A DNA stretch of 45,349 nucleotides from a virus: the IMG/VR virus record IMGVR_UViG_3300029911_000060, positions 1 through 45,349 of that record; one strand, given 5' to 3'. The notes under the pieces were generated by a model. The model was not told the DNA's origin. It did no database searches and was given only the letters and a program-made list of their open reading frames with translations. The translations under genes were made by a program, and so were the position numbers. Each line of letters begins with the position of its first letter. The stretch's first letter is position 1. Positions 19,820-44,353 of this stretch are shown piece after piece.

Positions 19820-21256
19820 TTAAAAGTCTTCCGCCGTTCCGTCGTTTGCCACAACCCGAGTCCGAACTTCATCGAAGCCATAACGCTTCAGAATCTTTCC
19901 AGTATCGAACACAGGAACCAAGCAATCCTGCGGGTAGGTGATACCTTCCTGCTTGGGGATGGTGCGGTATACCCCATTCACACAGACTACCGCGAGGTGA
20001 CCGGCCTTCGATGCCTTGCCGGGGTCGGTCTTGGGGTCTTTGAACACATCGTGCCACACCCCTTCAATGTCGATGGCCGACGCTTTCAGAGCAGTGCGCT
20101 GTGTGTCACGGTTGACCTTCTGGAGTGCTCCGCCACCCTCACCGAGGGTAAGGTTGTCCAGCGAGTATTTGGAACGCTCCAGTGTGGCAAGAATCTCGTA
20201 AGCGGAGTCGTAGTCAATGCCATCACCTTGAATGACACGAACGTGCTTGTTGAGAACTTTGTAGCCCTTGTCGTTGTAATCGGCACCAAAATTTTCTTCC
20301 AACCACTGGCAGGAGCGAAGGACCATCGTGGCCGGGTCACCAGAGTCTGGGCGAACCACAACCACACCTTCACGGCGAAGGATGCTGTCGCGATACTTAC
20401 CACCGATGATGGCGCGAACAAAGTTCTCGTAGTCGTACGAGTCGCCAACAATGGAGACAATACCTGTGGGGTACGCTTCCAGAATGTTGCCGATAGCACG
20501 AGGCTCGTTTTCCTTGCCCCACGAGGTTGTCGTGGAGTGCTCCGAGGCTGGAACGCTGCCCATCTTCACCGTGTGTGGAGCGCCGGTTAAATCGGGGTAG
20601 TAGGCTTCCACGAAGTCGTCTGCAATCATCGTGTCGCTCGATTTGAAGCTGAGCAAGTGAGCCGCACCACCAAGAGCCGCTGACTCCTGCGAAGACACAC
20701 CACGATAGCCAAAGTCCACCCACTTGTAGTCGATGAGACCGGGGTCGCCTGTCTTGTACAGGAATTCGAGGAACATCTGTCGCTTGGCGAACTGAGCCGA
20801 GGCGACGGTGGTGGGATACCACGACTGCATAATGGCAGTTTCAGCGAAGTTGTTGAACCAGATGAAACGGTCGTCAACGCTTTCGAGCACCAGCAGAGCG
20901 TTGGAGTTGTCCAATACGGTGCCCTCAGGAATCGCTTTGATGCGAATGGGTAGAGCGCCATCGTGTGCTTCGAGCATATCCAGCCAACCCTTGATGTTGA
21001 AGGTTCCCGGTCCCATCATTTGGTCAATCTTCCACTGGCGACGAAGAATGCCATCCTTCGAAAGGCGCTTGCCGGTGAAGTATTCCTCCAAGATGTACTG
21101 GAGACCAAAGGGCACGGTCTTGTGATACTTCGCACCGATGCGGCATTCGAGGTACGATTCAAGGCGTCGAGCGCCCGGTGGGTACATCCGCCAGTGGGAG
21201 TATTTGTACAGGTCTCCCCTACCATCAAACTCTTGCGACAATTTCGAAAGTGCCAT
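19820..21256 (-). CDS. nadV: Nicotinamide phosphoribosyltransferase (NadV/NAMPT)
   Basis: 478 aa, full family length. It makes nicotinamide mononucleotide from nicotinamide and PRPP. Recognisable family blocks: DFGYRGVSSQESAALGGAAH, LLSFKSSDTM (Asp equivalent to human D219), MGSVPASEHSTTTSWG (catalytic His equivalent to H247), VVVRPDSGDP (D313 equivalent) and VIQGDGIDYDSAYEIL. AAGGGGG precedes the ATG by 7 nt. It is followed, in transcription order, by small genes and preceded directly by the NMN adenylyltransferase/Nudix gene. Together the two form a complete two-step nicotinamide-to-NAD+ route as in phage KVP40. Confidence 0.95.
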   Translation of the reverse strand: MALSKLSQEFDGRGDLYKYSHWRMYPPGARRLESYLECRIGAKYHKTVPFGLQYILEEYFTGKRLSKDGILRRQWKIDQMMGPGTFNIKGWLDMLEAHDGALPIRIKAIPEGTVLDNSNALLVLESVDDRFIWFNNFAETAIMQSWYPTTVASAQFAKRQMFLEFLYKTGDPGLIDYKWVDFGYRGVSSQESAALGGAAHLLSFKSSDTMIADDFVEAYYPDLTGAPHTVKMGSVPASEHSTTTSWGKENEPRAIGNILEAYPTGIVSIVGDSYDYENFVRAIIGGKYRDSILRREGVVVVRPDSGDPATMVLRSCQWLEENFGADYNDKGYKVLNKHVRVIQGDGIDYDSAYEILATLERSKYSLDNLTLGEGGGALQKVNRDTQRTALKASAIDIEGVWHDVFKDPKTDPGKASKAGHLAVVCVNGVYRTIPKQEGITYPQDCLVPVFDTGKILKRYGFDEVRTRVVANDGTAEDF

Positions 21257-21268
21257 ATGTTGCCCCCT

Positions 21269-22213
21269 TTACAGATTGAAGTGCTTTTTGACGATGTGCC
21301 AAATGGGTTTGTGAACATCACTGAACAACGACTCGGAGAGTTCGCTGGCCTTAACCCACTTCACCTTGGCGATGTCGTCGTTGGCCTTACCCCCCATGGT
21401 CATGGACGTTCCAACAAAAACGAGCGTCTTGATTTGGTCGGGCTCCCCTGCCCAACGCCAGTCCGGAACCAGAGTTGAGCCAATATACTTCAGGTCTTCA
21501 ATCGGCAAGCCGGTCTCTTCCATGGCTTCACGAGCCGCATCGAATTCGTAGGAAGGTGTGGTGGGCTCTGAGAAACCCCCGATGAAGCGCCAGCACGTTT
21601 CACCGGGCTTCTGGCCGAGGAGAAAGAACCGCGTCAACCTAGCGGCGTCAGGGCCGGGATGCGACCACGATAGCAGGGTCTCGGTGGTAATCACGATGTC
21701 CACGGTCGCCTTGACCTGCGGACGGAGATTGGTGATGGCATGAATGACCCCGGCCCGGAAGTCGGCGGAGGCAATGATTTGATTAGTGAGGCCAGCCCGA
21801 ATCTCCGTACCATTGATGCTGCGAAGGTCGTGTGGCATGGTCAGTTCAACGGGCGTAAACGAGCCGGTGTAGTGCTTTGTGAAAGAATCACGAGAGCCGT
21901 ATAGCGTCACTTCGCCATAATCACAAAGTTCACGGATGCGACCATCCAGAACCTTCGACCACGCTTCATCGGTCGGCATGTCGGGAAGTGGAAGGATATT
22001 GAAATCCTTGTAGGCGGGAATTGCTTGAATCATCGCCCTGCGGGTCTCGAAGTCAAGAGGGTTCTTGTAAGTGGCTCCGATTGGTTTGACGCCAAGGAAA
22101 ATAATGACACGCGAGTTACGTGCCTTGACTTCGTTGAACAACCAGAGATGCCCTTCATGCAATTCATGCACTTGGCACCGGGCGACGAGTACACCATAAC
22201 TGGGTTTTTGCAT
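21269..22213 (-). CDS. nadM: Bifunctional NMN adenylyltransferase / Nudix hydrolase
   Basis: 314 aa from ATG 22213 (TGATG overlap with the upstream gene). The N-terminal domain (about 1-170) has the nucleotidyltransferase signature YGVLVARCQVHELHEGHLWL (HxGH-type HEGH) and a late ISxxxR-like region (NGTEIRAGLT), and should adenylate NMN to NAD+. The C-terminal domain carries a Nudix box: GGFSEPTTPSYEFDAAREA followed by MEETGL. This architecture is known from KVP40 NatV and bacterial NadM-Nudix proteins; the Nudix half usually hydrolyses ADP-ribose. Here it sits directly upstream of nadV, so salvage is co-expressed. Confidence 0.92.
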   Translation of the reverse strand: MQKPSYGVLVARCQVHELHEGHLWLFNEVKARNSRVIIFLGVKPIGATYKNPLDFETRRAMIQAIPAYKDFNILPLPDMPTDEAWSKVLDGRIRELCDYGEVTLYGSRDSFTKHYTGSFTPVELTMPHDLRSINGTEIRAGLTNQIIASADFRAGVIHAITNLRPQVKATVDIVITTETLLSWSHPGPDAARLTRFFLLGQKPGETCWRFIGGFSEPTTPSYEFDAAREAMEETGLPIEDLKYIGSTLVPDWRWAGEPDQIKTLVFVGTSMTMGGKANDDIAKVKWVKASELSESLFSDVHKPIWHIVKKHFNL

Positions 22214-22335
22214 CAATCTTCCTCTTCCAACCCCAATGTAATGGGGATGATTTTCATGTCGTGGCCGACCATTGCTTCCAACTCTTCATGGGGGTCGATA
22301 TGGGTGTGCATGTCAACGATTAAAAACTCAGGCAT
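22213..22335 (-). CDS. 40-aa acidic hypothetical protein
   Basis: Begins MPEFLIVDMHTHIDPHEELE and ends in GLEEED. GAGGGA lies 6 nt before the ATG. It overlaps the upstream gene stop by 8 nt and its TGA overlaps the ATG of the NadM-Nudix gene, so it is embedded in the NAD+ operon. Several His and Asp residues (MHTHIDPH) might bind metal. No family recognised. Confidence 0.6.
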   Translation of the reverse strand: MPEFLIVDMHTHIDPHEELEAMVGHDMKIIPITLGLEEED

Positions 22336-22591
22336 AGGAATCCCTCACTAACCGCGCCGAAGGAAGATGCATCCGTTCCACTACTGAAAGATTGAAGTGT
22401 ATGAGCCAAGAGGGGCCGTAGGCGTTGCGAAGCTGCTGAAGAAAATTGCTACCCTCGAAACCAGCATAGTCGCCGGTCATCCAAGCATCGCGGAGTTTCG
22501 ACTTCCATGTGCGACCATAAAGGTTCGCCCACTTACGCATAGCCTGAAGTTGTTCGGATGTGAGGTTCTCGTCCATCTCGAAGTAGCTCAT
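22328..22591 (-). CDS. Conserved small phage protein (YGRTWKSKLRDAW type)
   Basis: 87 aa. The central segment WANLYGRTWKSKLRDAW followed by NFLQQLRNAYGPSWL is a conserved short phage protein of unknown function that I have seen in many large phage genomes. The composition suggests a small helical nucleic-acid-binding fold, an inference only. The upstream sequence has a GTATACTAC element and no strong ribosome-binding site. Confidence 0.6.
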   Translation of the reverse strand: MSYFEMDENLTSEQLQAMRKWANLYGRTWKSKLRDAWMTGDYAGFEGSNFLQQLRNAYGPSWLIHFNLSVVERMHLPSARLVRDSYA

Positions 22592-22636
22592 GTACGTAGT
22601 ATACCTGAACCAGTCTAACTCTGGATACTTTTCCCC

Positions 22637-22870
22637 CTAATTTTTTTTTGGACCTTGGGGTAACGGCATCCAATGGGTGGCCTCTTCGTTCGCCAGCGTC
22701 CAGTAGACATCCTCGAATTCAGAGCAATCAAAATAACCCTTTCTGCGCTTGTCATGACGACAAAATCGAGCCTTGAAGCACTGGTGTTCGTCGGGGGCAT
22801 TAGGCCACCAGACCAGCACAACTTGGTCATGGTTTGGTTTACGCTCTTTTAGAGGAACCCAATCACTCAT
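22637..22870 (-). CDS. DUF551-like protein
   Basis: 77 aa from ATG 22870, GGAG 6 nt upstream, start overlapping the helicase stop (ATGAGTGA). It begins MSDWVPLKERKPNHDQVVLV and ends with ATHWMPLPQGPKKN, the DUF551 layout (W-x-P at the start, THWMPLP at the end). DUF551 proteins are common small phage proteins of unknown function. Confidence 0.75.
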   Translation of the reverse strand: MSDWVPLKERKPNHDQVVLVWWPNAPDEHQCFKARFCRHDKRRKGYFDCSEFEDVYWTLANEEATHWMPLPQGPKKN

Positions 22871-25649
22871 TGATGACTCCAATCTCTGACAAGAACCGAC
22901 TGGGTGTTACTCTCCGAGTGTTGCTCTCGTTCTGCTCCATGGAGTGTACACAAATGGTGAGGGCGTCTTTAGCGCGAGTCACGGCCACGTACCAAAGTCT
23001 GCGCTCCTCCTCAATTTCGGCCTCACTCCCCATTGAAAACCGATGAGGTAAACTACCTTCAACTACATTCGTCACATAAACCCTCCGCCACTCCAGCCCC
23101 TTTGCCGAGTGGATAGTGGACACCGTGACCATACCATCCTTGTCATCCTCACGTGCCCGGTCGATAGTAAGTTGGAATACAAGGTCTTCAGTGGACATCT
23201 TATGATCTTCGGAAAGACCACGTACAAGCTCCCTGAAGCGGTCGATGTTTTCCAGTTTGGTTTTTATCTTGTCGGGTTCCTTCTTGTACTTGTTGGAAAC
23301 ATAGCTCTTATAGTTCATGTAGTCAATGATTTGGTCAAGAGCCTGAACCGGATAGTCACCGAACTTCTGAAACCGTTCCAACGCCATTACAAACGTTGAC
23401 AACTTGTCAACAGAGGTGCAGCCCTTAATCAAGTCACCGCCGAACTTATCATTGGCCGTCTTGCGAATCTTTTCCAACGTCACATCACCAGCACCTGTCT
23501 TGGGTACGGTGACTGCACGAGCGAGAGCAGTAAAATCTTTGGGGTTGGTGGCAAGCCTCAAGTATGAAAGCACATCACGAATCTCTTCTGTTTGAAGAAG
23601 TCCGCGACCCCCGCGTATCTGATAGGGGACGCGATGACGCACCAGTGCGCTCTCAAGGTCAGGTATCTGACGGGCACTGCGAACAAGGATGCAGTTCTCT
23701 TTATATGGAATCTGATCCTTCTTACGCTGGTTATCTTTGGAAATCTCTCCGGCGATAATCAGTGCGATGTCAAGGGGCATCGAAGCACGAGTTAGTTCGA
23801 TGGTGCCCTTGTTATCCGAGTCACCACGGAAGACTTGCATCTTGAGTGGAATGGTGTCAGTCATCTTTGACTGAATGTGGTTAGCGAGATATACGATGCG
23901 CGGAAGGCTGCGATGGTTGCGTGCGATACGATACAGTATGGGTGTGTGCCCTCTCCACCCCTCTGAAAACTCCTTGAGAAGGTGTGGTGCAGACCCATTG
24001 AATCCCATGATGGAGTTCCCTACGACTAACCCATCAGCTATATACGTGTGCTCTTCTTCAACATCTAGGGAGTAGACTAACCCCTCATAGTGCCTAGATG
24101 GACAAGCAATAATAGGTACGCTTTTGTTCCGTCCCTCAATTGGGATGTCCATCAATCCCGGCAGGATGTTAGCCGCTGCTGTTTTGAAGTACCCACGCCA
24201 ACTTCTACCTATAAACCCGTCTGCACGTGGAGACAGAATCGGTTGTTCAAAAATAAGACCGTGGTCTGATAAGCAACGCTGACCCCCTTCAGGGTTAGCG
24301 TGAGAGAAGATTAGCCTAATTAGCTCATCAGTTTTGTGCCAGCACACTGTAGCTTCAAAAAGGGACTCAGGGATGCCATATTTTAGTGAGATGATTTCTT
24401 CCCATGCTTCCGCTTCCTGTCGAGTGTCATAGACGCCCAAAATCCAAGCCTTATCAGCCTTTTCTTGAGTGAACCTAGAGGAGAGCCCATAACTACCTGT
24501 AGTGCCCTTCCCTGTACTGCGCTTAAAAATGCTAAGACCCACTCTAAACCCCAAATCAGAACGATACATGAGATACACCATGTATTTTCCTGTTGTGTTT
24601 TTATTGAATCTCACCCAATTCCAGTGATTGGGGGTGCATTCAGTCGAACTGGTTTCAGTGGTGATTTTAAGTAATGCCCCTGAATAGGGGCGGTGGGCTA
24701 CTTTTATTTTCCGCCCTGAATGATAGGATATTTGGTCACGCTTGTGCCAAGTAGGAACTAAGTCACCGTCGCGCAAATCTTCGATGTTACGCAATTCGAA
24801 CCTTGATTTGACGCTACCCCTTGAAAGGGAGGTAGTGACCTTAACCTTAGTTCCCGGAGGTTGGCACTGGCTCAAATCTCCCACCGTCATTAGGTTTGGA
24901 TTAGCCGGAGCGAGAAGCCCGTTAACTACCCCCCACTGCGGAACAGACAAGTCCTGTGCCTCATCAACCAGCACAACATCAAATGCCTTCTGTAGTTGGG
25001 CTCTCCATGCTGAGTCTTGCTCACAGCGACGGTTAAACAGGCAAAGCATGTCGTCAAAATCTATCGAACCACAAGATTGTTTTTCAGCTTCGTACAGCTT
25101 CCAAATCTGCAAATCAAACGGCTCAAGAGCGTGGTGCCCTGCGTGGGCAACCAACGCTTGCTCGTGAACCTCATCGGTGTAGTCCACACAAAACCCGAGA
25201 CCCCGAGCGCGGTGATAGCCCACCTTATCAAGGAAACCATACACATAAGAACCAAGGCTGATACCTTTTTCCTTAACATCAACCGTCCGTTCTACAATCC
25301 GGCGAATCATCTGACTCTGGTCATAATCGTCCAGCGGTGTCACCTTTTGCTGGAGACCAAAACCAACCGGGTCACGGCGTATCGCTGAGAGGGCAATAGA
25401 GTGAATGGTGGATACTTTGGGGACATCGAAGGAGGCACCATCAAGTTGAAGCCGGTCTAATAATTCGTTTGCGGCCTTATTAGTAAAGGTTATCGCCGCT
25501 ATCTTTCTAGGTGGAATCCCTTGAGCGATAAGCCATTTTACTCTTTCGGTAAGAACGCGAGTCTTGCCTGATCCGGCTCCGGCGATGAGACAAGCTGGTT
25601 GCCCGAGTGGGTGTTCTACTGCGGCTATCTGTTCTTCATTCAGTTGCAT
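22863..25649 (-). CDS. UvrD/Rep-family superfamily 1 DNA helicase containing an intein
   Basis: 928 aa, of which residues 262-545 are an intein, leaving a 644-aa helicase. Helicase motifs in order: AGAGSGKT (Walker A, about residues 23-30), AITFTNKAA (Ia), VDEAQD (motif II, 228-233), VGDLSQ / SIMGFNGSAP (motif III, split by the intein), FRGDSDNKGT region, VSTIHSAKGLEWRRVYV (motif V) and RRLWYVAVTRAKDAL (motif VI). It should unwind DNA 3'-5' using ATP, in replication, repair or recombination. The ATG lies in AGTATTAGTCTACATG, identical in layout to the thioredoxin start and without a Shine-Dalgarno. It ends overlapping the DUF551 gene. Confidence 0.93.
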   Translation of the reverse strand: MQLNEEQIAAVEHPLGQPACLIAGAGSGKTRVLTERVKWLIAQGIPPRKIAAITFTNKAANELLDRLQLDGASFDVPKVSTIHSIALSAIRRDPVGFGLQQKVTPLDDYDQSQMIRRIVERTVDVKEKGISLGSYVYGFLDKVGYHRARGLGFCVDYTDEVHEQALVAHAGHHALEPFDLQIWKLYEAEKQSCGSIDFDDMLCLFNRRCEQDSAWRAQLQKAFDVVLVDEAQDLSVPQWGVVNGLLAPANPNLMTVGDLSQCQPPGTKVKVTTSLSRGSVKSRFELRNIEDLRDGDLVPTWHKRDQISYHSGRKIKVAHRPYSGALLKITTETSSTECTPNHWNWVRFNKNTTGKYMVYLMYRSDLGFRVGLSIFKRSTGKGTTGSYGLSSRFTQEKADKAWILGVYDTRQEAEAWEEIISLKYGIPESLFEATVCWHKTDELIRLIFSHANPEGGQRCLSDHGLIFEQPILSPRADGFIGRSWRGYFKTAAANILPGLMDIPIEGRNKSVPIIACPSRHYEGLVYSLDVEEEHTYIADGLVVGNSIMGFNGSAPHLLKEFSEGWRGHTPILYRIARNHRSLPRIVYLANHIQSKMTDTIPLKMQVFRGDSDNKGTIELTRASMPLDIALIIAGEISKDNQRKKDQIPYKENCILVRSARQIPDLESALVRHRVPYQIRGGRGLLQTEEIRDVLSYLRLATNPKDFTALARAVTVPKTGAGDVTLEKIRKTANDKFGGDLIKGCTSVDKLSTFVMALERFQKFGDYPVQALDQIIDYMNYKSYVSNKYKKEPDKIKTKLENIDRFRELVRGLSEDHKMSTEDLVFQLTIDRAREDDKDGMVTVSTIHSAKGLEWRRVYVTNVVEGSLPHRFSMGSEAEIEEERRLWYVAVTRAKDALTICVHSMEQNESNTRRVTPSRFLSEIGVINE
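24015..24866 (-). mobile_element. Intein inside the helicase, with GIY-YIG-like insert
   Basis: 284 residues from Cys262 (QCQPPGTKVKV) to Asn545, inserted within helicase motif III after VGDLSQ; the +1 residue is Ser. Splicing signals: N-terminal Cys, TPNH block B (His342), and a C-terminal block HTYIADGLVVGN. The penultimate residue is Gly rather than the usual His. Between the blocks, about residues 356-428, a segment starting YMVYLMYRSDLGFRVGLS and ending EEIISLKYGIPE looks like a GIY-YIG-type endonuclease core rather than the usual LAGLIDADG. Splicing would restore GDLSQSIMGF. Confidence 0.88.
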
Positions 25650-33994: not shown

Positions 33995-34070
33995 TGGAGC
34001 CAGAGACGGGGTTCTAACCCGTGACCTCCGTCTTACCAAGACGGCGCTCTAACAACTGAGCTACTCCGGC
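33995..34070 (-). tRNA. tRNA-Thr(GGT), copy 1
   Basis: 76 nt with encoded CCA. Acceptor GCCGGAG/CTCTGGC, anticodon arm CCGTC-TTGGTAA-GACGG. Its 5' end overlaps the last codons and TAG stop of the 66-aa gene. Confidence 0.93.
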
Positions 34071-34261
34071 CTAAAATTGACAAGCTTCCTCATCCAAAAT
34101 CCGATACAACCGAAAGCATCCCCATTCATAGGACATCCACGAACTCCCGGCTGTGTATACCTCTGATACCTCCACAGCCACTGACGCATAACTGCCAACT
34201 TCCACCGAGGCAGGATCGTGAATGGAGGCACGAAGAAGAACCAACTACTGAGCAACTTCAT
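34061..34261 (-). CDS. 66-aa hydrophobic/aromatic hypothetical protein
   Basis: Begins MKLLSSWFFFVPPFTILPRW. GGAGGAG lies 7 nt before the ATG, a strong ribosome-binding site. It overlaps the zinc-protein gene upstream and ends with TAG inside the 5' end of tRNA-Thr. The N-terminus could be membrane-inserted; the middle has GVRGCPMNGDAFGCIGF. Function unknown. Confidence 0.55.
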   Translation of the reverse strand: MKLLSSWFFFVPPFTILPRWKLAVMRQWLWRYQRYTQPGVRGCPMNGDAFGCIGFWMRKLVNFRPE

Positions 34262-34424
34262 GTAAAAGCTCCTCCCAAACCACATAGCTGGACTCTTCAC
34301 CAAAATCATCTTCCTTCTTTGCACACTCAGTGCAGAAAGGATGAGTACCGGCAAACTGCGTGTGACGAACCCAAGTGGCTTGCTTGCCACAAGCGGCGTT
34401 ATGGCGCGATTCCGAATCACGCAA
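34245..34424 (-). CDS. Small zinc-binding protein
   Basis: 59 aa from a TTG at 34424 (AGG upstream; no ATG available after the in-frame TAA). The sequence ACGKQATWVRHTQFAGTHPF, CTECAKKEDDFGEESSYVVW matches a recurrent small phage protein with a likely Cys/His metal site. It ends in TAG. The start lies inside the loop of a 10-bp inverted repeat (34403-34443), which may control it. Confidence 0.6.
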   Translation of the reverse strand: MRDSESRHNAACGKQATWVRHTQFAGTHPFCTECAKKEDDFGEESSYVVWEELLHEVAQ

Positions 34425-34443
34425 TTAAAACCTGAATCGCGCC
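34403..34443. repeat. 10-bp inverted repeat GGCGCGATTC/GAATCGCGCC
   Basis: Perfect 10-bp arms separated by 21 bp, with two further related copies (ATCACGCAATT inside the loop and ATTGCGCGATTT at 34450-34461). It lies over the start of the small zinc-binding gene. Could be an operator or an RNA hairpin hiding the start codon. Confidence 0.7.
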
Positions 34444-34459
34444 ACTTATATTGCGCGAT

Positions 34460-34651
34460 TTACTCTTTTGGTTCCTTCGGAGGTTGCAACCTTGAAGGTG
34501 GCCTCTTAGGAATCAGCACGGGAAACGTCCCGTACAGATAGTCGTTCTCACGTTCGCTACTGTCATCCGTGAAATGCGGTGAGGGGGCGTTGATATCACA
34601 CTCCGAATCATCCAACTCCCAACACAACCCCTTTTCAACTTTCTTACCCAT
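34460..34651 (-). CDS. 63-aa hypothetical protein
   Basis: Begins MGKKVEKGLCWELDDSECDI and ends with a Pro/Lys-rich tail (PPSRLQPPKEPKE). GAGG lies about 11 nt upstream, after two direct GTATTAGTGA repeats (34663-34684). No family recognised. Confidence 0.5.
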   Translation of the reverse strand: MGKKVEKGLCWELDDSECDINAPSPHFTDDSSERENDYLYGTFPVLIPKRPPSRLQPPKEPKE

Positions 34652-34714
34652 TTAGTCAGTACCTCGTACTCACTAATACTCACTAATACGGAAACTGGAG
34701 CCACGACTCGTAGC

Positions 34715-34933
34715 TTAAAACTCTTTGAACATGCAAACTACATCGTTGGTGTAGTCGCTCTTGGTAATGTAGAGCGTTCGACCATCATCGAAGCGGATTT
34801 CATACTCTGCTCCATGACCCCAGAATCTCCGCACTCCGGTTACAGCACAGCCTACTAAAGTCCCCAACTCTTCTTCAGTAAGCTGTTCCTTTTTAATCCG
34901 CTGGTTTCGTTCTTCCCACGTCAATGTACTCAT
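34715..34933 (-). CDS. 72-aa hypothetical protein
   Basis: From ATG 34933 (MSTLTWEERNQRIKKEQLTE); no Shine-Dalgarno, but GGTATTG lies close upstream. The C-terminal half reads GAEYEIRFDDGRTLYITKSD, a small beta domain. It lies between two tRNA genes. Function unknown. Confidence 0.55.
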   Translation of the reverse strand: MSTLTWEERNQRIKKEQLTEEELGTLVGCAVTGVRRFWGHGAEYEIRFDDGRTLYITKSDYTNDVVCMFKEF

Positions 34934-34954
34934 AGAAGAACAATACCATAAAAT

Positions 34955-35030
34955 TGGAGCACCCGAGGGGATTTGAACCCCTGTACCCTCCATACCAAGG
35001 AGGAGTCCTGAGCCACTAGACGACAGGTGC
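34955..35030 (-). tRNA. tRNA-Thr(GGT), copy 2, with Glu-like body
   Basis: 76 nt with encoded CCA. Acceptor GCACCTG/CGGGTGC, anticodon arm CCTCC-TTGGTAT-GGAGG, T-arm CAGGGG-TTCAAAT-CCCC. The D-arm (GTCGTCTAGTGGCTCAGGAC) resembles bacterial tRNA-Glu more than tRNA-Thr although the anticodon is GGT. Confidence 0.9.
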
Positions 35031-35153
35031 ATGTTTTTCGAACCACCAACGCAATCGGTCGATTGGATAGGTCACTGGTTCCCATATCGACTCAGGTAGA
35101 ACGTAAGACAGCGCCTGAGCAAATCGGTACAACGCGATGCTGATAACTCTCAT
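35016..35153 (-). CDS. 45-aa hypothetical protein
   Basis: Reads MRVISIALYRFAQALSYVLP then ESIWEPVTYPIDRLRWW. GAGG is 6 nt before the ATG. It ends with TAG inside the 5' end of the second tRNA-Thr(GGT). Hydrophobic N-terminus, possibly membrane-associated. Confidence 0.45.
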   Translation of the reverse strand: MRVISIALYRFAQALSYVLPESIWEPVTYPIDRLRWWFEKHAPVV

Positions 35154-35167
35154 ATCGTACCTCAAAC

Positions 35168-35243
35168 TGGAGCAGATGGTCAGATTCGAACTGACGGCGT
35201 CCTCGTTACAAGGGAGGCGCATTGACCGCTATGCTACATCTGC
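35168..35243 (-). tRNA. tRNA-Thr(TGT), copy 1
   Basis: 76 nt with CCA. Acceptor GCAGATG/CATCTGC, anticodon loop CTTGTAA on a stem with one C-C mismatch next to the loop, T-arm GTCAG-TTCGAAT-CTGAC. Confidence 0.88.
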
Positions 35244-35256
35244 AAAACAACTAAAC

Positions 35257-35333
35257 TGGAGCCAACGGAGGGCATCGAACCCCCGACCCGCAGTTTACAA
35301 AACTGCCGCTCTGACCATCTGAGCTACGTTGGC
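35257..35333 (-). tRNA. tRNA-Thr(TGT), copy 2
   Basis: 77 nt with CCA. Acceptor GCCAACG/CGTTGGC, anticodon arm GCAGT-TTTGTAA-ACTGC (perfect stem). The body differs from copy 1, so this is not a recent duplicate. Confidence 0.9.
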
Positions 35334-35346
35334 ATAAACCTAAACT

Positions 35347-35419
35347 TGGCAGGGGCGGAGGGAGTCGAACCCTCATTCACTGCTTCAAAGGCAGCTAGAC
35401 TACCGTCGCCATCACCCCT
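35347..35419 (-). tRNA. tRNA-Gln(TTG), copy 2
   Basis: 73 nt with CCA. Acceptor AGGGGTG/CGCCCCT, anticodon arm GCTGC-CTTTGAA-GCAGT, T-arm GAGGG-TTCGACT-CCCTC. Its first two bases lie within the TAG stop of the Pth2-like B gene. Confidence 0.9.
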
Positions 35420-35720
35420 ATTTCCACAACCGCAAAAACTTAAACATCTTCGGATATTCTTCCCGAGGACAGAAAGCTACAGCAACCTCTACATTTTCCA
35501 ACGTGGATTCCGTCAATACCACGTTGTCAGCCTCGGTCTTTGCCCGTTCAAATTCTGCGTCAGTTACAGTACATACAACCTTAAAGAATTGACTACTCAC
35601 CCATGTCTGCATCTCAGGCCGTTCCTTAAACTTCAGGTAGCACGCCAGCGAGGCATGTGCAGAGATTAGTACCGCCTTGCCCACAGGTACCACCTCGCGA
35701 ATTAGGATGTACATCTTCAT
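35418..35720 (-). CDS. Peptidyl-tRNA hydrolase 2-like protein B
   Basis: 100 aa from ATG 35720. A paralogue of the 32030-32332 gene: both begin MKMYILIR and end EEYPKMFKFLRL(Y/W)K, with the same A-H-A-S-L-A-C-Y-L helix. It is sandwiched between two tRNA genes and ends with TAG at the first base of tRNA-Gln. The tRNA context agrees with a tRNA-handling role. No Shine-Dalgarno is visible; the upstream tRNA ends 4 nt before the ATG. Confidence 0.65.
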   Translation of the reverse strand: MKMYILIREVVPVGKAVLISAHASLACYLKFKERPEMQTWVSSQFFKVVCTVTDAEFERAKTEADNVVLTESTLENVEVAVAFCPREEYPKMFKFLRLWK

Positions 35721-35724
35721 AACT

Positions 35725-35807
35725 TGGGGCCACGGGAGGGACTCGAACCCCCGATGTTGGTGTGACGGTTTACGGAACCGTTGCAGTCGCCGCTGTGCCA
35801 CCGTGGC
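35725..35807 (-). tRNA. tRNA with CGT-like anticodon (Thr?), unusual loop
   Basis: 83 nt with CCA. Acceptor GCCACGG/CCGTGGC, T-arm GGGGG-TTCGAGT-CCCTC, anticodon stem ACGGT/ACCGT with loop TCCGTAA. That loop gives CGT but has C instead of the invariant U at position 33, and the variable region is long (about 12 nt). Identity is uncertain. Confidence 0.7.
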
Positions 35808-35819
35808 ATTTCAAATTCG

Positions 35820-35918
35820 TTCCGTAGTCGGAGTCGAACCTACGAACTCGCATGATCCGTAAAAACCATTTTGAGTTCTGACAACAGTGTGGTTTACGCC
35901 ACCCTCAGTCATACGGAA
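35820..35918 (-). tRNA. tRNA-like sequence, fold unresolved
   Basis: Acceptor arms TTCCGTA/TACGGAA and a T-arm GTAGG-TTCGACT-CCGAC are clear, but the 99-nt length and the middle (an AACTC/GAGTT stem with a 23-nt loop) do not give a normal cloverleaf. No CCA is encoded. Could be a class II tRNA, a pseudogene or an interrupted tRNA. Confidence 0.4.
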
Positions 35919-36044
35919 AATCAACCCTGTGTTGCCTCGCCACTTGGCAAAGCGTGTTTCTTTTTCTTCGGCTCTTTCTTCTGAGCCCACGACATGTCGG
36001 CATTCTTACCAGCTACAAACTCACGACATGCCGCATATTTTACT

Positions 36045-36119
36045 TGGTGCCCGTAGTTGGGATCGAACCAACGACCTTTCGCTTATCAAGCGACTGCGCT
36101 ACCACTGAGCCATACGGGC
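36045..36119 (-). tRNA. tRNA-Ile(GAT)
   Basis: 75 nt with CCA. Acceptor GCCCGTA/TACGGGC, anticodon loop TTGATAA on a GTCGC/GCGAA stem, T-arm GTTGG-TTCGATC-CCAAC. Confidence 0.9.
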
Positions 36120-36132
36120 TTACCCACTTGAT

Positions 36133-36215
36133 GGACTTGGGCGGAGTTGAACCGCCTCTACGCATGAGGTCTTCCTGAAGGGCAATACCTTTCGGTTTCC
36201 CATCTCAGACATAAA
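36133..36215 (-). tRNA. tRNA-like remnant
   Basis: A perfect T-arm (GGCGG-TTCAACT-CCGCC) and a CTC/GAG variable-arm-like stem are present, but there is no matching 5' acceptor strand or anticodon stem. Best read as a decayed class II tRNA. The adjoining 36216-36288 holds a small hairpin (gcaagg..ccttgc) and no gene. Confidence 0.35.
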
Positions 36216-36288
36216 GCAAGGTCGCGTACCTTGCCGACTCTGAGTGCCGGTTTTCTCCCTACGTGCCTGACCACAGCAAGCCCAAACT

Positions 36289-36363
36289 TGGTGCGCCCTC
36301 AGAGACTCGAACTCTGGTCATCCGATAATCGGTCGGAGGCCCTAGCCGCTAGGCGAAAGGCGC
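36289..36363 (-). tRNA. tRNA with GAT-like anticodon, unusual loop
   Basis: 75 nt with CCA. Acceptor GCGCCTT/AGGGCGC, D-arm GCC...GGC, T-arm CAGAG-TTCGAGT-CTCTG all regular. The anticodon stem TCCGA/TCGGA encloses CCGATTA: C at position 33 and T at 37 depart from the norm, so the decoding identity (nominally Ile) is doubtful. Its 5' end overlaps the upstream gene. Confidence 0.75.
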
Positions 36364-37910: not shown

Positions 37911-37988
37911 TGGTGCGCCCGGTGGGACTTGAACCCACGCTGACAGGGCTTTAGAGACCCCCGCTCTAGCCAACTGAGCTACGGGCGC
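37911..37988 (-). tRNA. Suppressor tRNA (CTA, reads UAG), copy 1
   Basis: 78 nt with CCA. Acceptor GCGCCCG/CGGGCGC, anticodon loop CTCTAAA (U33, CTA, A37) on a GGGGT/GCCCT stem, T-arm GTGGG-TTCAAGT-CCCAC. The CTA anticodon pairs with the amber codon UAG. The amino acid carried cannot be told from the sequence by eye. Confidence 0.88.
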
Positions 37989-38625: not shown

Positions 38626-38702
38626 TGGTGCCCCCGGAGGGACTCGAACCCACAACCTCCGGTTTTAGAGACCGTCACTCTAACCAGTTGAGCTACGGGG
38701 GC
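38626..38702 (-). tRNA. Suppressor tRNA (CTA, reads UAG), copy 2
   Basis: 77 nt with CCA. Acceptor GCCCCCG/CGGGGGC, anticodon loop CTCTAAA identical to copy 1 on an ACGGT/ACCGG stem (outermost pair mismatched). The body is related to but distinct from copy 1. Confidence 0.88.
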
Positions 38703-43459: not shown

Positions 43460-43702
43460 TCACCTCGGTGTCACTACCTTGGAGACTCTCTCCATTGTGG
43501 AGAAAAGACACGCAGTCTCCGATATCGAAAAAAAGCTTACGAAGATCTTGTGCTCACCGCCATCTTTAGTATTGCCATCACTCCAGATTTGAGCCACGCC
43601 GGTCCAGCCACCATAGTCCTCATCCTCAATCCAATGCACTTGAAATGAAGGGTAGTGTGAATTATTAAGACGGGTTCTGGTTGTGTGAGTTCTGCGAGAC
43701 AT
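43460..43702 (-). CDS. 80-aa hypothetical protein
   Basis: Begins MSRRTHTTRTRLNNSHYPSF; AGGAG 4-5 nt upstream. Contains QVHWIEDEDYGGWTGVAQIW, a beta-rich aromatic stretch. First gene after the tmRNA hairpin. Function unknown. Confidence 0.6.
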   Translation of the reverse strand: MSRRTHTTRTRLNNSHYPSFQVHWIEDEDYGGWTGVAQIWSDGNTKDGGEHKIFVSFFSISETACLFSTMERVSKVVTPR

Positions 43703-43718
43703 AGACTCCTAATCGGCA

Positions 43719-43738
43719 GAGGCCGCTTTCGCGGCCTC
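43719..43738 (-). terminator. Terminator-like hairpin after the tmRNA
   Basis: Perfect 8-bp stem GAGGCCGC/GCGGCCTC with a GAAA tetraloop on the minus strand. No strong U-tract follows, so it may also be a processing or stabilising hairpin. Confidence 0.65.
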
Positions 43739-43744
43739 ACCCTA

Positions 43745-44080
43745 GACAGGACTGGGAACAAGGTAACTGTCAACCTTGGCAGGGCTGGTTATTAAGCAGC
43801 CATTGCGTATGCAGGAGTTTCCGCATTTATTTTTGTTGCATTCCCGTATAGGCCATGCCATCCACCGTATTGCGTGGAATCGCTGACCCTCTCCGGCTCC
43901 CCGGAGAACGAACAGGTATACTAAAACGAGTTGTAGACCGCTTCCGCCTGAACACCCGTCGAAACCGTGACACACCCAAGGTGAAACAATGAAACCAAAC
44001 TTGGTGGATGTGGTGGGAGTCGGACCCACGTCCGAATGTCGTTTAGAACGTCTTCAGTCCCTTGCGGGACAAACAACCAT
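43745..44080 (-). ncRNA. ssrA: Circularly permuted (two-piece) tmRNA
   Basis: Transcription order: first the 3' acceptor piece (44080-44002) with hairpin GTCCC-GCAA-GGGAC, T-arm GTGGG-TCCGACT-CCCAC, acceptor strand CACATCC, discriminator A and CCA. A spacer of about 24 nt follows, then the coding piece starting at 43977 with GGGTGTG, which pairs with CACATCC (one G-U), and the hallmark GGTTTCGACGGG. The tag frame at 43839-43789 is GCA...GCT-GCT-TAA-TAA, encoding ATKINAETPAYAMAA; its end resembles the YALAA ClpXP degron. A hairpin CAAGGT/ACCTTG follows. It rescues stalled ribosomes and tags nascent proteins. Confidence 0.9.
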
Positions 44081-44086
44081 GTACAA

Positions 44087-44116
44087 ATAATACCCGTATT
44101 CGAAAAACTTTGTCAA
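44087..44116 (-). promoter_or_regulatory. Strong sigma70-type promoter of the tmRNA
   Basis: Consensus TTGACA (44116-44111), 18-bp spacer, TATTAT (44092-44087). Transcription would start near 44080, exactly at the acceptor piece of the permuted tmRNA. Confidence 0.8.
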
Positions 44117-44353
44117 CTATTCTTCTTCACCCTCGCCACTGTGAGAGAAGGCGTGCTGCATGGAGAACAACTGCACAACCGGCCAGAGCACGATGGTCAA
44201 CATGGAATAGAGGCAGACCATGACGAAAAATGTTCGGTCGTTGTTCATGGTTTCGCGATACTCGATTTCAATGATGGCCTGATTGACGCGGTAGGTTTGC
44301 CACATGCCCATCAACCAAACGAAGACAGCTACACTCCAGCCTATACCCATCAT
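44117..44353 (-). CDS. 78-aa membrane protein
   Basis: Begins MMGIGWSVAVFVWLMGMWQT (first helix) and has a second helix in FFVMVCLYSMLTIVLWPVVQ, with an acidic tail ending GEGEEE. GTATTAG sits just before the ATG. Its stop abuts the tmRNA promoter. Function unknown. Confidence 0.6.
   Translation of the reverse strand: MMGIGWSVAVFVWLMGMWQTYRVNQAIIEIEYRETMNNDRTFFVMVCLYSMLTIVLWPVVQLFSMQHAFSHSGEGEEE

Follow-up and report, generated by a model that had tools for sequence, protein, structure and literature searches.

A circularly permuted, two-piece tmRNA gene in a large myophage with a probable Acidobacteriota host

Structure of the tmRNA gene

The DNA analyzed here, hereafter called the window, is a virus record of 45,349 bases and is a fragment. 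A complete circularly permuted tmRNA gene, including its promoter, occupies positions 44116-43719 on the minus strand, the strand on which all parts of the gene described below are located. A single tmRNA was predicted in the window by ARAGORN, of the permuted form, at 44094-43701 with the tag AETPAYAMAA followed by two stops. The Rfam model RF04321 (tmRNA_permuted) matched positions 44059-43792 at 73.3 bits (E 2.5e-12; gathering score 47), and these two results bear out the sequence-only reading of this DNA, which had proposed a phage-encoded permuted tmRNA in two pieces. The parts are ordered as promoter, acceptor piece ending in CCA, 24-nt spacer, and coding piece. The sigma70-like promoter, TTGACA-18-TATTAT (44087-44116), agrees with the consensus at 11 of 12 positions. 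This element had been correctly recognized, but it does not start exactly at the acceptor piece as had been claimed; the tmRNA presumably starts near 44080, about 7 nt downstream of it. Similar -10 elements, and often -35 elements, were found by eye 5' of the homologues in L101, L103, L104, L105, and L361.

The acceptor piece (44002-44080, with the 5' end placed from the promoter) contains a hairpin, GTCCC-GCAA-GGGAC (44057-44070), a T-arm, GTGGG-TCCGACT-CCCAC (44013-44029), and the 3' strand of the acceptor stem, CACATCC (44006-44012), followed by ACCA ending at 44002. The 24-nt intervening sequence (43978-44001) is presumably removed by host tRNA-processing enzymes. The coding piece (43719-43977, with the 3' end placed at a hairpin) starts at 43977 with the 5' strand of the acceptor stem, GGGTGTG (43971-43977), which forms seven base pairs with CACATCC, including G3-U70, so that the pairing previously proposed between the pieces was found. 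Two further elements of the earlier reading were also recovered, namely the GGTTTCGACGGG hallmark (43955-43966) and a tag ending in YAMAA with two stops, here the ARAGORN-predicted frame AETPAYAMAA (43795-43824) and the tandem stops TAA TAA (43789-43794). The 3'-end hairpin of eight base pairs, GAGGCCGC-GAAA-GCGGCCTC (43719-43738), is not accompanied by a T run. A resume codon, a tag frame ending near AA, and a stop are all present, as are both G3-U70 and the CCA end. An open reading frame of 80 amino acids with no family match lies directly downstream (43460-43702, minus strand) and is possibly co-transcribed with the tmRNA.

The T-loop, TCCGACT, departs from the canonical TTCRANY, having a C at position 55 where tRNAs and nearly all relatives have U. 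TTCRANY is usual for tmRNA without being strictly defining, and alphaproteobacterial tmRNAs also lack it. This C could represent slight decay or a sequencing error. Together with a more aberrant T-loop in the L103 homologue it might indicate that the gene is a non-functional relic, an explanation made very improbable by the covarying stems, the open tag frame, the promoter, and the persistence of the gene across diverged phages.

Pairing between the two pieces was compared with a strand-swap control in 41 permuted genes of phages, among which 14 acceptor helices are distinct. Acceptor helices were fully paired within the gene in 13 of 14 distinct cases versus 20 of 182 after strands were swapped between genes, the offset of the 5' strand being picked by best pairing in both arms. 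On the whole minus strand of the window only 11 sites are able to pair fully with CACATCC. Energy folding of the two pieces recovered the acceptor stem and left P2 unsettled; covariation was therefore used for this helix. In the proximal part of P2, GACATTC (44034-44040) pairs with GGGTGTT of the coding piece (43951-43957, read from 43957 to 43951). Over the six positions nearest the tRNA-like domain, a mean of 4.45 were paired versus 3.48 in swapped combinations (31 distinct sequence pairs). The observed total was reached by none of 10,000 permutations, a test that can be inflated by relatedness and in which the regular expression misread two rows (L101 and L361). In the distal part of P2, GGTTGT (44073-44078) pairs with ACAACT (43929-43934, read from 43934 to 43929). 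The window and L101 share GGTTGT/ACAACT, and GGTCGT occurs with ACGACC or CGACC in L104, L105, and L361; as judged from these sequences, the change on both sides is compensatory. Several matches to the pattern GGCTTCGACGG, such as L317 and L357, lie inside protein-coding sequence and were set aside as chance occurrences.

Among 396 acidobacterial genomes, RF04321 passed its threshold in 13. Matches occurred in 19 genomes in total, counting these 13, and each of the 19 has a full one-piece gene at the site. In most of the over-threshold cases the acceptor half is supplied by a tRNA gene just upstream or, in genome G191, by a tandem tmRNA copy. False permuted calls of this kind on one-piece genes preceded by a tRNA gene were seen at L260, L264, L266, and similar loci, and they matter for annotation. 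Because one-piece genes behind a tRNA gene also pass, a match to RF04321 alone is no proof of permutation. A permuted tmRNA native to Acidobacteriota was considered and rejected, as the matches there sit on one-piece genes. No tRNA gene lies upstream of the window tmRNA, and ARAGORN calls only the permuted form.

Identity of the phage and its likely host

The genes of the window include those for a head maturation protease, a tail sheath, NAMPT, a NUDIX/cytidyltransferase, a helicase, and homing endonucleases. At the DNA level, only short tRNA-like pieces of the window matched the phage collection. The tail sheath has a full-length match, at 48%, in Tunturi_5 (PP885688, PMC11924767), a complete isolate phage genome of 308,711 bp from the acidobacterium Tunturiibacter. 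Fourteen window genes match Tunturi_5 at about 37-71% at the amino acid level. The structural genes in the first 17 kb of the window are collinear with positions 260-280 kb of Tunturi_5, and those for NAMPT, cytidyltransferase, and helicase have matches there as well. Based upon this collinearity an acidobacterial host is likely, and the window probably derives from a large (jumbo-type) myophage infecting Acidobacteriota. A search of the 396 acidobacterial genomes for the sheath gene gave no match. The permuted form of the gene had been read as a sign of a host among the Alphaproteobacteria, Betaproteobacteria, or Cyanobacteria; this inference finds no support, the closest isolate phage infecting an acidobacterium whose relatives have one-piece tmRNA.

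One-piece tmRNA was found in all 24 acidobacterial genomes tested (five named genomes and 19 others), the genus of Tunturiibacter included. The five named genomes, which include Edaphobacter lichenicola M8UP30 (now placed in Tunturiibacter), Granulicella, and Terriglobus, gave scores of 164-198 bits and tags such as AEPQFALAA and ANNNLALAA.

Permuted tmRNA was above threshold in five of 39 records with a related sheath gene; most of the 39 are short fragments, so the lack of an over-threshold tmRNA in the other 34 is uninterpretable. Tunturi_5 carries a permuted tmRNA at 158195-157899 on the minus strand (86.4 bits). It is unannotated, with no feature at these positions in the record, and the Tunturi_5 paper reports 43 tRNAs without mention of a tmRNA (PMC11924767). 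Tunturi_5 resembles the window both in its collinear structural genes and in its permuted tmRNA. The two differ in that the Tunturi_5 tmRNA adjoins cytidyltransferase and NAMPT genes, directly upstream of the same pair (NAD salvage) that occupies 19820-22216 on the minus strand of the window, and in that its tag, AKNSPVVRGTAKVLSFARKFVPAVSSTRAFAMAA, is 34 amino acids long (read by eye). Across phages with 48-68% sheath identity the gene persists with open tag frames, and every homologue retains a coding piece together with a tag frame that is open and ends in stops. The tags of the homologues are ANSNVALPIAA in L101 and L102, ATAPKAFAAAA in L103 (read by eye), ATAPKALAMAAAA in L104, and ANAPKAMAAHA in L105; a 456-kb contig outside the sheath set has a tag ending in ANAPKAMAMAAAA (L371, and also L361 from a second contig). 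The permuted tmRNA of L103 (1350-1880), which has an aberrant T-loop without TTCGA, was missed by ARAGORN and is followed by a match to CyVA-1 RNA (RF02965).

Origin of the permuted form

None of the alpha, beta, and cyano tmRNA models (RF01849, RF01850, RF01851) matched the window at its gathering score. The best lineage model of the clan was the betaproteobacterial one, both for the window (54.4 bits, gathering score 84) and for L131 (46.9), L104 (45.5), and L103 (33.9). The window tmRNA resembles betaproteobacterial permuted tmRNA in its piece order, a TTCGA-type T-loop, and a AUGGUUGU-like start of the acceptor piece, but differs in the body of the coding piece. It shares its piece order with alphaproteobacterial permuted tmRNA as well. 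The alphaproteobacterial genes, however, have T-arms of the form CCCGGGGGCRGTACCCGG and tags of the ANDN... type, and their T-loop region GGGGGCRGTACCC is absent from the window tmRNA. With Acidobacteriota one-piece tmRNA (RF00023) the gene has in common a similar tRNA-like domain, GGGGGCGTCACGG(C/T)TTCGACGGG, although the acidobacterial genes are not permuted and specify tags of the AEPQFALAA and ANNNLALAA kind. In this domain the phage group is 60-80% identical to the alphaproteobacterial genes retrieved (mean or best match) and 75-98% identical to acidobacterial one-piece genes. Taken together with the different T-loop, these identities make a recent alphaproteobacterial donor very unlikely, while fitting a permutation of independent origin and an old capture from beta or cyano lineages alike.

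The suggestion that the gene was captured from a host of a permuted lineage was not upheld in its original form, since the alphaproteobacterial T-loop is missing and the betaproteobacterial model, at 54.4 bits, falls far short of its threshold of 84. Capture from a betaproteobacterial, cyanobacterial, or other permuted lineage would nonetheless account for the form as a legacy of the donor with no separate event. We consider this possible rather than probable, insofar as the betaproteobacterial model is the best lineage-specific one for the window, L131, L104, and L103 and its consensus shares the acceptor-piece 5' motif AUGGUUGU, while all of these scores lie far under threshold. The permuted form may instead have originated independently by conversion of a one-piece tmRNA; for instance, a host gene could have been duplicated in tandem, with the outer halves of the pair then lost. 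The phage tRNA-like domains from G029 and G036 are 89-98% identical to acidobacterial one-piece genes, with L104 (G029) reaching 98%. In one acidobacterial genome, two one-piece tmRNA genes follow each other in tandem (G191:C13:201907-202671; L294 and L298); they are a conceivable intermediate for circular permutation and show that the arrangement needed can occur. However, this generic tRNA-like domain spans only about 56 nt, and that of the window is equally close, at best 89%, to acidobacterial and to proteobacterial one-piece genes. The likeness could also stem from adaptation to the host AlaRS and SmpB, and an independent permutation is rated as doubtful. The broader proposal, that these genes form a phage-borne two-piece lineage outside the alpha, beta, and cyano groups, with a permutation of its own (possibly from an acidobacterial one-piece source), phage-chosen tags, and hosts with one-piece tmRNA, is likewise offered only tentatively.

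Proposed function

With good confidence, the gene is predicted to supply a large myophage, whose host is probably one of the Acidobacteriota, with a complete two-piece tmRNA that would rescue ribosomes stalled during infection. A single transcript from the gene's own promoter would be cut by host tRNA-processing enzymes into acceptor and coding pieces, with RNase P and 3' processing enzymes the expected nucleases from established tmRNA biology, and the two pieces would be held together by the acceptor stem and P2. The host AlaRS would charge the RNA with alanine by way of G3-U70, and host SmpB and EF-Tu would bind the charged tmRNA. SmpB (PF01668) was not found in the complete Tunturi_5 genome or in seven other related records, and so host SmpB would be needed. 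The tmRNA would then enter ribosomes stalled on nonstop mRNA, AETPAYAMAA would be added, and translation would terminate. In this manner the phage tmRNA may supplement or replace the one-piece tmRNA of the host as the phage takes over translation. The simplest reason for a phage to keep such a gene would be to free ribosomes while host messages are destroyed, and redirecting of the tag is a possible further reason.

Tag sequences vary among these phages and do not match those of the hosts: some phage tags end in AMAAAA or AMAAHA, host tags in LALAA or FALAA. These differences would also fit an RNA that acts as a decoy, competing with the host tmRNA for SmpB, or as a tag switch whose product is handled differently by host proteases. 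One known phage RNA (DS6A) consists of a TLD alone, and a molecule of this type inhibits tmRNA (PMC4131195, PMC11915505). A mere decoy, however, would not need the coding piece and open tag frame with stops that every homologue keeps, and the window tag ends in MAA, near ordinary degrons; both roles are considered unlikely. A working tmRNA that adds a phage-specified tag during infection is the most likely interpretation of the gene.

Two-piece phage tmRNAs are not new as a kind, because a 2022 count classed 53 of the 133 unique structures of phage tmRNAs as two-piece, 50 of the 53 being aquatic (PMC9004378). A 2025 tmRNA database lists 79 phage tmRNAs of all forms (PMC11915505). The sequence-only reading had stressed the rarity of permuted phage tmRNAs, an argument that the 2022 counts leave weaker than stated. 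Phage Melnitz and other marine phages (PMC9004378) resemble the window phage in encoding a permuted tmRNA directly behind a promoter. Unlike Melnitz, whose tmRNA is alphaproteobacterial-like, the window represents a jumbo-type phage with a probable acidobacterial host and a tmRNA for which no lineage model exceeds threshold. A literature search for Acidobacteria with permuted tmRNA returned nothing relevant, and the setting observed here, phages of a phylum with one-piece tmRNA whose own tmRNAs fall outside the three modelled lineages, is undescribed in the papers searched. If the proposed reading is true, the form of a phage tmRNA gene would be no guide to the host, and permuted tmRNAs would be active in cells that have evolved alongside the one-piece form. 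Tunturi_5 and its host are both culturable, making the processing, charging, and tagging by a two-piece phage tmRNA directly testable.

Additional observations

Two tRNAs with CTA anticodons are present on the minus strand of the window (37911-37988 and 38626-38702); these are amber suppressors, labelled Pyl by ARAGORN. TAG terminates several window genes, and extending these by readthrough revealed no conserved protein. TAG therefore appears to remain a stop, and amber recoding in the window was rejected. At 22328-22882 on the minus strand, two short frames in the same register are split by a single TAG and would yield one protein of 184 amino acids were it read as sense, which makes this TAG a suppression candidate. 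Weak homologues of the downstream half occur in phages of Brevundimonas and Rhodobacter. In a tRNA array at 33995-36363 on the minus strand, five of the eight tRNAs are for threonine (GGT, GGT, TGT, TGT, and CGT) and two are Ile-GAT, and a similar array is found in the relative L116.
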